This document shows positions 31,806 through 39,563 of a DNA stretch of 39,852 nucleotides, piece by piece (position 1 is the stretch's first letter; each line of letters begins with the position of its first letter). The notes under the pieces are model-generated. The model did not search any database. It was not told the DNA's origin and worked only from the letters and a program-made list of their open reading frames with translations. Position numbers and translations under genes: made by a program. This DNA comes from Dehalococcoidia bacterium (GTDB lineage: Bacteria; Chloroflexota; Dehalococcoidia; Dehalococcoidales; Fen-1064), in contig PMMG01000139.1 of NCBI GenBank assembly GCA_003162335.1, forward strand, positions 1 to 39,852, in the 5' to 3' direction.

Positions 31806-32636
31806 ATGGCTACTAATAACAATATCGAGAGTATCAGTTTAGGGGATGCGGTCGGGAAATATCTGGCAATTTTGCCAGATGAGAAAAAGAATGCCGCGCA
31901 ACAGGAAATTAACAATTTTATCCGCTGGTACGGTGGTCGTGAGAAAACCCTGGACAGCCTCGAAGGTTCTGCCGTCGGTAATTACGCTGAACGTCTGGCC
32001 AAAACAGATGCTGCTTGTATGCAAAAACTGGATCTGGTCCGTGGGTTTCTCACCTACGCGCATAAGCAGCGCTGGTGTCAGGAGAACCTTTCAGTCAGTA
32101 TTCGTATCGTGAAAAAAACTCCATCTAAAACCGCTTCATCTTCGGCAAAAAAGAAGAATCAGAAGAAAAACGCGGTCTGCATGACCCAGAAAGCCTTTAA
32201 TGAAATTGAAATTGAATTAAAAACCCTACAGGAAAAACGACTTGTGGTGATTGAAGATATTAAACGAGCCGCCGCGGATAAAGATTTTAAGGAAAATGCG
32301 CCTTATCATGCCGCGCGCGAACAAAAAAGTCTACTCGACGGCAAGATCATGGAACTCGATGAGATGGTTGCTAACTCGGTCATCATCGAAGAAAACCTCA
32401 ATACCAATACCGCTGTCATCGGAAGCACCGTTCTCTTACAGAATCTGGATTCGGGTAAAGAATGCCGCTATACCCTGGTCGGCCCTCGTGAAGTCAACCC
32501 TGCTAAAGGTAAGATTTCAGCCGTTTCACCCGTCGGTAAGGCGGTCTTCGGTAAAGCCGCCGGCGATAAATTCGAGGTAAATGTCCCATCCGGTAAATTG
32601 CACTTTGAACTAAAAGTCATCGAACACTCTAAATAA
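31806..32636 (+). CDS. GreA/GreB-type transcript cleavage factor fused to N-terminal tyrosine-recombinase SAM-like domain
   Basis: C-terminal 'AADKDFKENAPYHAAREQKSLLDGKIMELDEMVANSVII...KISAVSPVGKAVFGKAAGDKFEVNVPSGKLHFELKVIE' is GreA-like; N-terminal about 100 aa resembles integrase core-binding domain. Confidence 0.85.
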   Translation: MATNNNIESISLGDAVGKYLAILPDEKKNAAQQEINNFIRWYGGREKTLDSLEGSAVGNYAERLAKTDAACMQKLDLVRGFLTYAHKQRWCQENLSVSIRIVKKTPSKTASSSAKKKNQKKNAVCMTQKAFNEIEIELKTLQEKRLVVIEDIKRAAADKDFKENAPYHAAREQKSLLDGKIMELDEMVANSVIIEENLNTNTAVIGSTVLLQNLDSGKECRYTLVGPREVNPAKGKISAVSPVGKAVFGKAAGDKFEVNVPSGKLHFELKVIEHSK

Positions 32637-32962: not shown

Positions 32963-33238
32963 ATGGCAGACTGGCAGGTAACCGCCGTTACAATCAATTG
33001 CCCCTCAGTGGCAGAAGAAGTGACTATCATTGTCAAAAGCGATTGGTCCGTTCAGTGCTCCGGTTTTGAAAAATATGCATCCTCCCGCCGTGCCCAGTTG
33101 GCTCTAGTTGACCGTAGTCTGACGATCAAACGCGTTCTCGAATGTAAAAGTGTAGAGTGTAACCAGATTACCGAATACGTCCAAAAATTACAGGCGGAAG
33201 AGAATCACAAAATTGAGCCCACCGGAGACAAGAAATGA
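32963..33238 (+). CDS. Small four-Cys hypothetical protein
   Basis: 91 aa; 'INCPS', 'VQCSG', 'LECKSVEC'; overlaps the downstream ATPase start by 4 nt (ATGA). Confidence 0.6.
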   Translation: MADWQVTAVTINCPSVAEEVTIIVKSDWSVQCSGFEKYASSRRAQLALVDRSLTIKRVLECKSVECNQITEYVQKLQAEENHKIEPTGDKK

Positions 33239-34026
33239 CAACCCCTGCCGAACGTCAGGTAAAAATAAAAATCGAGAATCTCTCACTTTCGATTGGCAGT
33301 GTGAAATTGCTGGATAATATCAATATCGATGTCTATGACAATGAAATCCTTGCCGTGATCGGCCCTGCTGGCGCCGGTAAAACTGCTCTGCTCAATTGTA
33401 TCAATGGTTTTCTAAAACCGCAAAACGGCGATATCTTTTTCGAAGGAAAGAAAATTACCGGCATCCGTCCAGACAAAGCGGCGCAACTTGGCTTGGGGCG
33501 CACTTTCCAGAATAGTGAATTTTTTCCAGGATTAACAACACTCGATAACCTCATGGCTGCCCGCCATTTGCTTGTCGACCAGAATTTCCTTACCGGCGCT
33601 CTCTATGTTGGACCCGCTCACGGGGAGGAACTCGACCACCGCCGTGCTGTCGAAGATATCATCAGTTTTTTGGGACTGGAAGCAGTCCGAAAGAGCCTTG
33701 TCGGCACACTATCCGATTACCTGCGTAAAAAAGTCGAACTTGGCCGTGCACTAGCTACCGAACCGTCAGTCCTGTTGTTGGATGAACTGACAGCAGGTTT
33801 GAAACCGCAAGAACGAACTGATATTACCAATCTCATTTTGGATATTTTTAAAGGACAAGGTGACATCTATCCTCGCACGCCGGTATTACGCGATGGCGTC
33901 AAATGCATCGTGTTATTTGCGCGCGATTTGGCCTCCGTTTCATCTATTGCAAACCGTATCGTCGCCCTCGATTCCGGTAAAAAGATGGCCGAGGGCAAAC
34001 CCGCTGAAATCAAAACAACCCACTGA
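33235..34026 (+). CDS. LivG-like ABC ATPase with degenerate signature and H-loop
   Basis: Walker A 'GPAGAGKT', Q-loop 'TFQNSEFFPGLTTLDNL', Walker B 'VLLLDE', but 'LSDYLRKK' replaces the signature and 'FARDL' replaces 'EHDM'. Confidence 0.85.
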   Translation: MTTPAERQVKIKIENLSLSIGSVKLLDNINIDVYDNEILAVIGPAGAGKTALLNCINGFLKPQNGDIFFEGKKITGIRPDKAAQLGLGRTFQNSEFFPGLTTLDNLMAARHLLVDQNFLTGALYVGPAHGEELDHRRAVEDIISFLGLEAVRKSLVGTLSDYLRKKVELGRALATEPSVLLLDELTAGLKPQERTDITNLILDIFKGQGDIYPRTPVLRDGVKCIVLFARDLASVSSIANRIVALDSGKKMAEGKPAEIKTTH

Positions 34027-34119: not shown

Positions 34120-35808
34120 TTACTCCATTGTCTTTGACCACACCGCTTTAGATCGGAAACCCACTCTTTCCAGCAGCGCATCGCCCGTCATCATAAAGGT
34201 GAATATTATCAGTGAAAGACAGAATGCCGGCCAGAGCCCCAATCGAGGAGCTGTGAACAGATATTGTCGCCCTTCATTTGACAGCATTGTTCCCAGTTCC
34301 GGAACTCCCGGAGGCACGCCAAGACCGACATAACTGATTGCCGAGAAATAGATGATGACACTGGCGGTGGCGAATAAAAATACCACCGGTAGCGACCACA
34401 ACACCCCTTGCAGACAGCTCTTTCCCTTCGGCGCTGAAAGGTAAGCTTCCTGAACCATGCCTGCAGCACGGGGCAGCATTACCAAGCCGCAGATCACCGC
34501 AGGAAAAACAGTGCTCATACTCAACGGGTTGAAGGATATTATGAGCCAGATCAACGCCAGCCATGGTAAAGCACAAACGATTTCTTTGGGTAGCATTACC
34601 AGGTCTTCCAATGTATCCCCTGTCCAATTATTCATCTTCCCGCAATAAGCTGCCAACATTCCCCAACCGGCAGCTGCGATGGTTACTACTGCTGCGCAGG
34701 CGATACCGATTAAAACATCGATTCTGATACCATAAAGCAGACGGCTGAAAATGTCTCTACCCAGTTGGTCGGTGCCCAATAGGTATTTTGCCGACGGCGG
34801 ACTGAGCCTGTCTATCAGGTGGATCTCATTCATACCATAGGGCGCCAGCAGCGGTCCGATTATCGCTACCAATACGATCAGAACGACTAATGCCAATGAG
34901 AATATCAGCCACCACTGCGGTATGGCAAACCGTAACGGACTTTCCGACTTATCCTGTTCAATATTTGCCAGGGTTTTATTGGCATAGTTGTAGGCGATTT
35001 CTAATAAATTGGCGACCAGTTTCGCCGCGACCACGATCAGTACGAATATCCAGATTATACCGAAAACTACCGGGAAATCTCCGCTCAGAGTGGATTGCAG
35101 CAGTAAACTTCCAATGCCGATTTCCAGTGTTACCACTATGATAATACCGATCAATCTTAACAACCTGATTACCAATTTGATGATTCCGTGGTATGCCAGC
35201 GTCCTGAAAGGCGTATTTCCCGGCCATTTTGCCAATTCTCCATGTCCGGTCTGTGTCAGCAGACCCGCGGGCAGGATACACGCGCATAAAGCAGCCAGAT
35301 ATATTAAGGGAGATGAATTAGCGGGCAGCCACCAATTCCAACCGTAAAGATGAAAAATTACCATCATTCCTACTGATAAAGGTCCGAAAGTCAGGATAAG
35401 AATGCTCGAACTGCTGCTGACCAGCACCACCCGTAAAATACTTCTCAACCGCGCCAGCCAATTTGGTTTTTCAGTAAAACGACGGATAAAAAAACCGACA
35501 GATAGCGTGATTCCTGCAATTATTAGACTGAACAACCCTGTTAGCCCGATTAATTGCATTGTCAGACTTATGCGGGGATTGATATCTTGTGCCACAGTGT
35601 GACCTGTCCAAATAGATTTATTCCAGTCCCATGTAGCGGAATCACGGGAAACTGGGATTTTACGTCCTGTGTTTATCTGGTTGACTACATTTACGGGTAT
35701 AGCATGCCTGAGGACCAGTAATATGAGCCACACGATGAGTAAAATCAACCCGGCAAATACTATTTTCCGCCCCGCCGCAATCAGCGCACGTTTGCCTTCT
35801 GTACTCAT
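34120..35808 (-). CDS. Fused DppB-DppC-like ABC permease
   Basis: 562 aa; N-terminal half DppB-like, C-terminal half DppC-like with 'PPSAKYLLGTDQLGRDIFSRLLYGIRIDVLIG' and 'SYVGLGVPPGVPELGTML'. Confidence 0.85.
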   Translation of the reverse strand: MSTEGKRALIAAGRKIVFAGLILLIVWLILLVLRHAIPVNVVNQINTGRKIPVSRDSATWDWNKSIWTGHTVAQDINPRISLTMQLIGLTGLFSLIIAGITLSVGFFIRRFTEKPNWLARLRSILRVVLVSSSSSILILTFGPLSVGMMVIFHLYGWNWWLPANSSPLIYLAALCACILPAGLLTQTGHGELAKWPGNTPFRTLAYHGIIKLVIRLLRLIGIIIVVTLEIGIGSLLLQSTLSGDFPVVFGIIWIFVLIVVAAKLVANLLEIAYNYANKTLANIEQDKSESPLRFAIPQWWLIFSLALVVLIVLVAIIGPLLAPYGMNEIHLIDRLSPPSAKYLLGTDQLGRDIFSRLLYGIRIDVLIGIACAAVVTIAAAGWGMLAAYCGKMNNWTGDTLEDLVMLPKEIVCALPWLALIWLIISFNPLSMSTVFPAVICGLVMLPRAAGMVQEAYLSAPKGKSCLQGVLWSLPVVFLFATASVIIYFSAISYVGLGVPPGVPELGTMLSNEGRQYLFTAPRLGLWPAFCLSLIIFTFMMTGDALLERVGFRSKAVWSKTME

Positions 35809-36073: not shown

Positions 36074-37060
36074 TTATAGAGTCTTGAATATTAACCGGTG
36101 TGCTGTTCTTCCACAAATACAGCGCTCAGTGGTATAAGATGCCATTGCGCCTGTGCCGAATCTTATCAAACCCCACACTTTGTTGTCGATCGGCGTCACC
36201 ACTATTTCCCCTACCTCTCCCGGCTTCAACTGATTCCCGGTTGCCGGATCGACGATTTCCACTACATAGTCATCCGACATGTGGAAACCTGCCTTTTGCG
36301 GACATTCGTAGGTGATCGCACCGCCTGCCTCGGGCACTGTATAGGCTTGCCTTGTATCGATGCCGTAGTTCTCTTCCAGTTTCTTCCGGTCTTCGGGCAA
36401 TAACATTTCGCTGGTAAACCAGGCGCGTTCCAGGTTAAAAGAGTTGCGGAAATCCAGTCCCATTTCTTCCGCCTTTGTGATCAGGCTCATCATCATTGAA
36501 GGCCTGCCGACAAAACCATTCACTTTGAGGTCGCGTATGACCGGTAATTGGGCCTCGGGATTATTTTCGCCGGCTGGAATGACAGTCGCGCCGCATTGTC
36601 TCAGTCCTTCATGGGCCAGCATACCTTCCGTACCGTGGTTGTAATCAAATGCATTAATTACAATATCGCTCTTTCTAAATCCGGCTGCCCACAATGCCCG
36701 GGCAAACCACTCGATTTTGGCGGAATGCGGCGGCAGGTAGAATGGGCCGGGAGCTATAAATACTCTCTCTACAACTTCCGGTTTTATCGCTAAAAATCCG
36801 CCGTAGGGCGGTTGCGCTTTTTGCCGCTCGACCAAATCGTTCCTGCGGATAATCGGCAGCCGCACCAGGCTTTTCATAGAGTGTATGTCACGCGGTTTTA
36901 CGCGTGCTTTGTCCATCATTTCCTTTGCGGCCGGAGCATACTTATAAGCGTGACTGATTGAGGCACGCAACTTTCTTTCCAGGTAGATGTGCCTTGCGTT
37001 GACAGGGCGCTCTTCCAGGTCGTCAAAATAAATGTCTTTTCGGGTTGACTTTAATACCAT
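36074..37060 (-). CDS. Phenylacetate-CoA ligase (PaaK)-like protein, degenerate and C-terminally truncated
   Basis: 'SISHAYKYAPAAKEMMDKARVKPRDIHSMKSLVRLPIIRRNDL', 'CGATVIPAGENNPEAQLPVIRDL', 'RCICGRTAHRL'; ends before the lid domain. Confidence 0.82.
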   Translation of the reverse strand: MVLKSTRKDIYFDDLEERPVNARHIYLERKLRASISHAYKYAPAAKEMMDKARVKPRDIHSMKSLVRLPIIRRNDLVERQKAQPPYGGFLAIKPEVVERVFIAPGPFYLPPHSAKIEWFARALWAAGFRKSDIVINAFDYNHGTEGMLAHEGLRQCGATVIPAGENNPEAQLPVIRDLKVNGFVGRPSMMMSLITKAEEMGLDFRNSFNLERAWFTSEMLLPEDRKKLEENYGIDTRQAYTVPEAGGAITYECPQKAGFHMSDDYVVEIVDPATGNQLKPGEVGEIVVTPIDNKVWGLIRFGTGAMASYTTERCICGRTAHRLIFKTL

Positions 37061-37093: not shown

Positions 37094-38113
37094 TCATTTT
37101 AATATCTTCCAACCGTATTTGCGCCGGTCCGGCAGTAGTGCCAGGAATACTATTGAAACAACCACCACTATTATCATTGCCAACCATGAAGGACCGTCCC
37201 CCGGTATTAGCTTTGTGCCCAGGATGGCGGGCGCCAGTTGATTACTGATTAGAACGACGATAATCGCTCCCAGTACCGGTCCCCACATCATGCCGAATCC
37301 GCCGATAACCAGAATACCGAGGTAAATAACCGATTGAGTAAAACCGAACATACCAACCATGCCGCTGTTAATCAATCCGGTTGAATGCGCTAAAAGAGCA
37401 CCCGCCGTGCCTGCCATCGCGCAGCCGATACCGAAAGCCAGCAGTTTATAGCGGAATAGATTGACGCCCGTTGCTTCCGCCGCACGCTCGTTATCACGGA
37501 TGCCAATAAAAGCTCTTCCCGTGCGAGTCCTGACCAGGTTGTTACCAAAAAATAGCGTTAAACCCATGATGATCATGATTAAATAGAACTGGCTGCCTGG
37601 TGTTATTACATCGATCGCGCCGACCTTCATGCCACTGACCTTCAGACCATCCGTGCCGCCGGTAACACTTGTCCAGTGGCCGATGACCCACAAAATGATG
37701 AATTGGACGGCGGCGGTGATCAGCGCCAGTTTCCAGCCTTTAACCTTCCAGGTTGGTAGCGCTGTTAGCATTCCCAGCACCCCTGCAATTAAACCCGCCG
37801 CGATCAGCCCGACAATAAATGACTGATTGAATTTGCCGGTCAATACCGCCGAAGTATATGCTCCCACAGCAATGAATCCCGCGTGCCCGATGGAAAGCTG
37901 GCCGCAGTAGCCGGTAATCAGATTGAGCCCGACGGCGGCGATCACCATGATGCCCATCAGGTTGAGCAAACCGAACCAGTAACCGGAAACCCATATCGGG
38001 GCGGTCACCAGTAATATCACGATGATCCACAGCAGCGCTTTTTGAGTTCGTGTGTGGAAGATTGCGGTGTCTTCGTCGTAAGTGTAATTTCGGAGTCCGG
38101 CGGGTAAAGCCAT
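37094..38113 (-). CDS. livM: Branched-chain amino acid ABC transporter permease (LivM-like)
   Basis: 'LNLITGYCGQLSIGHAGFIAVGAYTSAVL', 'RTGRAFIGIRDNERAAEATGVNLFRYKLLAFGIGCAMAGTAGALLA'. Confidence 0.93.
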   Translation of the reverse strand: MALPAGLRNYTYDEDTAIFHTRTQKALLWIIVILLVTAPIWVSGYWFGLLNLMGIMVIAAVGLNLITGYCGQLSIGHAGFIAVGAYTSAVLTGKFNQSFIVGLIAAGLIAGVLGMLTALPTWKVKGWKLALITAAVQFIILWVIGHWTSVTGGTDGLKVSGMKVGAIDVITPGSQFYLIMIIMGLTLFFGNNLVRTRTGRAFIGIRDNERAAEATGVNLFRYKLLAFGIGCAMAGTAGALLAHSTGLINSGMVGMFGFTQSVIYLGILVIGGFGMMWGPVLGAIIVVLISNQLAPAILGTKLIPGDGPSWLAMIIVVVVSIVFLALLPDRRKYGWKILK

Positions 38114-38114
38114 T

Positions 38115-39563
38115 TTAAGTTCCCTCCGTCTTTGCTGCCGCTTTATCAGTCAGGATTAATTGTCCCTTTTCGTCGATTTGAGCCGGGATGCCGGTATAGT
38201 ACCAGCCGTCTATCAAGACCTGGCCGGTTTTAACCGGGTCTTTGTAGTAACCGCTGAACATGGCGGTGCTTCTGACCAGCATTTCGCCGTTTTTCAGGAT
38301 TCTGATTTCGGAGTTCATGGTTGGGCGACCGGCTGTTTTAAAATCGTTCTCTTCCAGACTTTGACTGGCAATCAGTCCGGTTTCCGCGATGGCGAAGGTT
38401 TGCCGGATTTCCACACCGAGCGTGTGCATTAAAAGAAGTGTCTCCATGGCGGGCGCCGTGCCGCCGAAGGATACCGCAAACCTGGTGCGGCTCAGTCCGG
38501 TTTTGTCCTTGAGCGGGCTGCGTATCCAATCGACTGGTAAATCCCAGAGCCGTTGGAAAATGTTGGGCTTTCTGCTTCTTATTTTCAACGAGGCTACTTT
38601 ATTGCCGGTTGGGAGCAAAGTTTTATAAAAAAACCGTGCAATCGGGTTGCTGCCGCTTACTTGCGACTTGATCTCCGCGGCCAGGTTTTCCCATTGCCCG
38701 GCGCTACAGGCGACGAAGTCCGGGCCGGTTTCGCGGGTATCGGGGGCGGATGTTTCCGTGTTCTCCGGGTAGTTCAAAGTCGCGCCGGTGAGCAAATGCG
38801 GCATGGTCGCGAAAAGGCTGTTTTCTGCCGAAGCCGCCGGTAAACTCGCCATCAGGTGGTCTTCGGGTTGAACCGGGAAGCGCAATTGCAGACCTTCGGC
38901 AGAGCTAATGAGTGCCTTGTGAGTCATCACCGCGCCTTTGGGCTGCCCTTTGACATCGAGGGTATAAAAGATGAAGGCCGTGTCATCGCTACGCCCGCTA
39001 TTGATGTTCTGTTCGAAAACGCCGGCATTGGCTTTCCCATAGTCTTCTCCCAATTTGAGCAGAGCGTTGAAGCCGATCAACCGCGGGTCGTCATAGTCTT
39101 TCAAACCTTTCGGGTTGAGGTAGATGATCTTTTGAACGGCGGGTATTTCCGGTGTGCCGGTGAGGAACTTTTCGGCCTGTTTATAATCGGTGACGAAGGC
39201 GAATTTCGCGCCCGACTGCCGGACGATATATTGTGCTTGTTCCGCGGTGGATTCGGCCGGGATGCCAGCAGCGATGCCGCCTGCAGTCTGCGCTGCGAAT
39301 TCAGACCAGAGCCATTCCGGCTCGTTGTCCCCGAGCAGGCAAACGACATCGCCGTGCTGCAGACCCAGGCTGATGAATCCCAGCGAGAGCTGCCGGACAA
39401 TTTCGTAGTACTTGCGCCAGGAATATTTTTGCCAGATGCCGTACTTTTTCTTGCAGAGTGCGGTCTCGATGGCCCACCTGTCGTAGTTGCGACGGACGAG
39501 CTTCGGGATGGTGTCATAAACCCTGGCGGGTCTTTTGGGTTCGATGTTTTTTGGCGTTACCAT
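38115..39563 (-). CDS. AMP-binding (long-chain acyl-CoA synthetase)-like protein, degenerate and C-terminally truncated
   Basis: 482 aa; 'SLGLQHGDVVCLLGDNEPEWLWSEFAAQTAGGIAAGIPAESTAEQAQYIVRQSGAKFAFV' acyl-CoA synthetase N-terminus; core motifs altered. Confidence 0.85.
   Translation of the reverse strand: MVTPKNIEPKRPARVYDTIPKLVRRNYDRWAIETALCKKKYGIWQKYSWRKYYEIVRQLSLGFISLGLQHGDVVCLLGDNEPEWLWSEFAAQTAGGIAAGIPAESTAEQAQYIVRQSGAKFAFVTDYKQAEKFLTGTPEIPAVQKIIYLNPKGLKDYDDPRLIGFNALLKLGEDYGKANAGVFEQNINSGRSDDTAFIFYTLDVKGQPKGAVMTHKALISSAEGLQLRFPVQPEDHLMASLPAASAENSLFATMPHLLTGATLNYPENTETSAPDTRETGPDFVACSAGQWENLAAEIKSQVSGSNPIARFFYKTLLPTGNKVASLKIRSRKPNIFQRLWDLPVDWIRSPLKDKTGLSRTRFAVSFGGTAPAMETLLLMHTLGVEIRQTFAIAETGLIASQSLEENDFKTAGRPTMNSEIRILKNGEMLVRSTAMFSGYYKDPVKTGQVLIDGWYYTGIPAQIDEKGQLILTDKAAAKTEGT

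Follow-up and report, generated by a model that had tools for sequence, protein, structure and literature searches.

We found that a LivG-like ABC ATPase (LivG*) of a Dehalococcoidia bacterium shows a real, lineage-specific loss of catalytic residues in a known protein family, within a transport module that is itself eroded. LivG* is encoded in the window, the 39,852 nucleotides of contig PMMG01000139.1 (assembly GCA_003162335.1). It is descended from the LivG family and has lost its ABC signature and switch histidine; genes of its module have been deleted, and those that remain have evolved under purifying selection. We favour, with modest confidence, the reading that LivG* is a pseudo-ATPase specific to this lineage, that its transporter has ceased to pump, and that a binding or scaffolding function accounts for its retention.

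Family assignment and motifs of LivG*

The initial annotation placed the reading frame and its motifs correctly and described the product as LivG-like, in agreement with our profile matches, orthologues, alignment to MJ1267 and predicted fold. LivG* matched ABC_tran (3.2e-26), and its best NCBIfam match was LivG PRK11300 (NF008449, 8.3e-49). The predicted structure was a confident ABC fold (pLDDT 88) with LivG and LptB as PDB matches. Homology to LivG in sequence and fold extended over nearly the full length, placing LivG* in the LivG family; identity to orthologues was mostly 57–69%, and hydrophobicity was kept at 79 of 86 conserved hydrophobic positions. The score of 166 bits was far below the LivG equivalog cut-off of 362; by the NCBIfam equivalog criterion, LivG* is a divergent relative and no equivalog. 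The protein and its motifs are as follows.

33235..34026, plus strand: LivG*, LivG-like ABC ATPase in a putative pseudo-ATPase form, 263 aa
33361..33384, plus strand: Walker A GPAGAGKT with N45A (family GPNGAGKT)
33496..33513, plus strand: Q-loop GRTFQN, kept in the orthologue alignment
33709..33753, plus strand: lost ABC signature, LSDYLRKKVELGRAL (family LPYGMRKRVELGRAL)
33769..33786, plus strand: Walker B VLLLDE, kept in the orthologue alignment
33787..33813, plus strand: proline/D-loop region LTAGLKPQE (family PMAGMNLEE in the orthologue alignment)
33853..33897, plus strand: insertion GQGDIYPRTPVLRDG
33910..33939, plus strand: lost H-loop, VLFARDLASV (family VLIEHDMGVV)

Walker A, the Q-loop and Walker B with its catalytic glutamate were all present in LivG*, with N45A as the sole change. 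Walker A and Walker B had both been described as intact, which holds for Walker B; in Walker A, N45A sits in a column that is invariant in 70 of 70 orthologues. The loss of the signature and the replacement of the H-loop histidine by arginine, both proposed initially, were borne out. LSDYLRKKVELGRAL lay opposite LSGGQMKLVEIGRAL of the solved LivG MJ1267 (1g6h) in an alignment without gaps, indicating a true loss of the signature instead of a displacement, and the orthologue alignment agreed; LPYGM has become LSDYL, which is neither of the signatures of functional ATPases (LSGGQ or LPYGM). ARDL lay opposite the EHDM that is invariant in the 70 orthologues, and the switch histidine is absent (H230R). 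A displaced but intact signature or H-loop was rejected on these two alignments. In addition, the proline after Walker B is replaced by leucine, the D-loop region has changed from AGMNLEE to AGLKPQE, and the C-terminal tail conserved in orthologues (VISAYLG...) is missing. Among invariant columns, changes affected 12 of 19 in the signature, D-loop and H-loop regions versus 1 of 17 cis nucleotide contacts (Fisher p=4e-4, for groups defined post hoc on data already seen).

Compared with the LivG of branched-chain amino acid ABC importers, LivG* resembles MJ1267 (PDB 1g6h/1gaj) in fold and length and shares with importer LivG (PRK11300/NF008449) the Walker A and B motifs, the Q-loop and a LivM in the gene context, whereas it is without the signature, D-loop, switch histidine and C-terminal tail. 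An insertion of about 13 aa before the H-loop sets LivG* and its close orthologues apart from MJ1267. Its consensus, GQGxTYPxTPVLRDG, occurs in nearly all orthologues, the close ones included, alongside intact motifs, was absent from the more distant LivG proteins compared, and ranks among the best conserved stretches of LivG*. The insertion had been noted next to the losses of LivG*; it is indeed present, but as close orthologues combine it with intact motifs, it is normal for the family. For the same reason, the insertion was rejected as the cause of the motif loss.

The orthologue search covered 156 genomes of the order and identified a LivG orthologue in 69, counting the source genome, i.e., in 68 of the 155 others. 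All 70 other orthologue sequences had GPNGAGKT, the signature glycine, DEP and EHDM, including that of the congener G001, which was pieced together from two contig ends. LivG* differed at 25 of the 78 columns invariant across these sequences; when each other sequence was left out in turn, it showed 0–1 such changes, except for one outlying sequence with 7. The losses are therefore not conserved across orthologues, a check that had been proposed at the outset, and a clade-shared loss was rejected among the sampled genomes. Nor does a "non-canonical transporter-derived system" hold as a conserved system, since all 70 orthologues keep the motifs. Among the sampled genomes, the catalytic loss is confined to the source species. 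A scan of genome contigs with the LivG* protein as query matched only unrelated ATPases.

Erosion of the surrounding module

Relatives carry the module as FadD-LivH-LivM-LivK-LivF-PaaK, with sORF91-LivG in convergent orientation to it. The corresponding genes of the window are as follows.

32963..33238, plus strand: sORF91, a 91-aa four-cysteine protein overlapping livG through ATGA and conserved 5' of livG in relatives
34120..35808, minus strand: OppC-type permease, 562 aa, between PaaK* and LivG*, with no such gene there in relatives
36074..37060, minus strand: PaaK*, 328 aa, similar to phenylacetate-CoA ligases, without the C-terminal domain and with TGA in place of TGD
37094..38113, minus strand: LivM permease, evolving fast, with most of the coupling loop preserved and without its C-terminal tail
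38115..39563, minus strand: FadD*, acyl-CoA-synthetase-like, 482 aa, stopping at the hinge, YTSGTTG changed to YTLDVKG and TGD to TGI

The window shares with the module of the order its orthologous genes, the convergent LivG and sORF91 upstream of it. It differs in the deletion of LivH, LivK and LivF, in the catalytic degeneration of LivG, in an intervening OppC-type gene, and in a FadD and a PaaK that have changed ATP motifs and no C-terminal domain. FadD* adjoins LivM, which in turn is almost contiguous with PaaK*. What the window encodes is an import module of the ordinary Liv type that has undergone secondary erosion. A complete Liv importer would combine two permeases, two ATPases and a binding protein, of which LivM and LivG* are left. 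The window comprises the entire contig, whose end is 289 bp upstream of FadD*, and displaced genes may lie beyond. Neither LivF or LivK orthologues of the module nor a second intact orthologous module were found in the rest of the draft assembly (86% complete). A check for a second ATPase elsewhere in the genome had been proposed; two complete canonical Liv operons, each with its own full set, do supply LivG/LivF pairs, while an orthologue of the module's LivF was not found. Promoter and terminator scans gave scores no better than shuffles, and our literature search yielded nothing direct on this module or on pseudo-ATPases in bacterial importers.

The pseudo-ligases that had been suspected nearby were confirmed, as both are cut before the C-terminal domain and have changed ATP motifs. 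In the complete FadD of G001, AMP-binding_C_3 spans 483–616, and FadD* stops at 482, right before it; in the complete PaaK of G001, AMP-binding_C_2 spans 344–426, and PaaK* stops at 328, likewise shortly before the domain. The structure model of FadD* was moderately confident (pLDDT 72). As a separate matter, none of the 15 aligned orthologues of the PaaK-like ligase has the SSGTTG phosphate loop that is usual for such enzymes; most have SPGPIYEP, and orthologues (e.g. L060:13834-15123) keep TGD and the C-terminal domain despite it. This oddity belongs to the whole PaaK-like set and is independent of the losses in the window.

The OppC-type permease is probably outside the module. Its C-terminal half matches OppC/NikC and its N-terminal half resembles a diverged second permease; an OppB-OppC fusion is possible. 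The four cysteines of sORF91 are conserved, selection on it is not relaxed, and neither the window copy nor the single orthologue scanned had a Pfam match.

Selection on the remnants

LivG of G001 was 75–87% identical to the copies of other lineages, compared with only 57–68% for LivG*. LivM and FadD showed the same excess divergence as LivG or more, whereas ThiC, GG-reductase and GreA on the same contig did not; acceleration was thus seen only in module genes. Using a branch codon model run with our own script, whose omega values are rough as synonymous sites are saturated on the branch, dN/dS was 0.114 on the branch versus 0.027 in the background for LivG (2dlnL 13.2), 0.090 versus 0.042 for LivM (2dlnL 17.7), 0.079 versus 0.048 for FadD (2dlnL 13.4) and 0.122 versus 0.076 for PaaK (2dlnL 2.3; the rise was not significant). 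Four control genes showed no rise, and omega=1 was rejected for all four module genes. Because of the saturation, the model was rerun with the branch fixed at 4, and the outcome was unchanged; with this setting, dN/dS in LivG was 0.48 (background 0.010) in the catalytic segments and 0.11 (background 0.032) outside them. A neutral phase long enough to account for the excess would be expected to leave about 15–22 stops in the four genes; we observed none in about 1,400 codons, and no frameshift. The remnants therefore have neither the disrupted frames nor the dN/dS near 1 of pseudogenes: all four are open and have been under purifying selection along the lineage. We take this as an argument that the proteins still do something.

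The main alternative is slow decay, i.e., a useless module is lost piecemeal under selection that is relaxed but present, and the reading frames now have no role. We consider this plausible, though short of probable. It would account for the three deleted genes, the truncated ligases and tails, and the relaxed dN/dS in three of the four module genes, and the two complete Liv operons may render the module dispensable. In the congener G004, our searches gave no match for PaaK, FadD or LivK, and the relatives of LivG, LivF and LivM that they did turn up were distant. The pseudo-ATPase reading, for its part, draws on a single genome (179 contigs, 86% complete). However, decay fits poorly with the absence of stops and the rejection of omega=1, with changes that cluster in the catalytic segments and spare the cis ATP residues, and with tight gene packing across the deletions.

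Proposed state of LivG* and remaining alternatives

In an ABC dimer, each ATP site takes Walker A and B, the Q-loop and the switch from one chain and the signature from the other (PMC12038006). As a single chain has lost the H-loop together with the signature, both composite sites would be affected with any partner; with both sites damaged, LivG* would be more than the degenerate half of a transporter that retains one working site. Heterodimers in which one site is degenerate are common (PMC12038006), and LivG* might be such a half, paired with a LivF or LivG of an intact Liv operon. The genome does encode two canonical LivG/LivF pairs, and subunits with degenerate ATP-site residues are found in MsRv1273c/72c, TAP and BmrCD. 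These systems keep one consensus site, whereas the defects of LivG*, which is without switch and signature, would hit both; moreover, the module's own LivF is gone and both intact operons are complete in themselves. We consider this pairing unlikely. It is very improbable that the sequence reflects an error of assembly or sequencing or that the contig is a contaminant: the assembly is a draft of 179 contigs with 2.2% contamination and the module lies at a contig end, but the changes are codon-structured with omega well below 1, which is impossible from errors, the neighbours LivG, sORF91, GreA, GG-reductase and ThiC also occur in G001 with congruent divergence, and GC content is even along the contig.

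LivG* descends from an ordinary LivG, which together with LivF supplied the ATPases of a conserved FadD-LivHMKF-PaaK/LivG module for import and activation. In the source lineage, the module no longer has LivH, LivK (the binding protein) or LivF (the partner ATPase), the C-terminal domains and ATP motifs of both ligases are gone, and LivG has lost the elements through which it contributes to the closed dimer and to hydrolysis. Under the pseudo-ATPase reading, LivG* should still bind ATP in cis through the kept Walker A, Q-loop and Walker B, and would form no productive sandwich dimer and not cycle. The remnant of LivM, LivG*, FadD* and PaaK* would no longer be a primary pump and may be kept for a non-catalytic role, most likely nucleotide or ligand binding or membrane scaffolding. 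ATP binding without turnover, loss of pumping and a retained role are what we infer for LivG*; the initial proposal that it binds ATP and hydrolyses it poorly is supported to the extent that motifs can predict it. More tentatively, and with some doubt, the whole import-and-activation module may have turned into a non-catalytic membrane complex that, in place of pumping, senses a ligand, facilitates its passage or serves as a scaffold. Such a complex would consist of one Liv permease, a LivG that binds ATP and does not cycle, and two ligase domains stripped of their catalytic parts.

Like pseudoenzymes in general, LivG* keeps the fold and part of the nucleotide pocket under purifying selection and has lost catalytic residues. 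A motor without its trans-acting and catalytic residues, with its ATP pocket spared, its partners deleted and purifying selection still acting on it, is rare among bacterial ABC importers. The intact orthologues, in the congener and in 68 of the 155 other genomes of the order that were searched, offer a ready comparison for what a non-cycling ABC ATPase is used for, or for how a module dies. The degenerate state would be more interesting if it were stable across strains.

We also noted two other genes of the contig. GreA (31806-32636) has an N-terminal extension of about 120 aa, which is present in relatives and has no Pfam match, and a 262-aa protein (797-1585) looks by eye like the catalytic domain of a 2-oxoacid dehydrogenase acyltransferase without the lipoyl domain.
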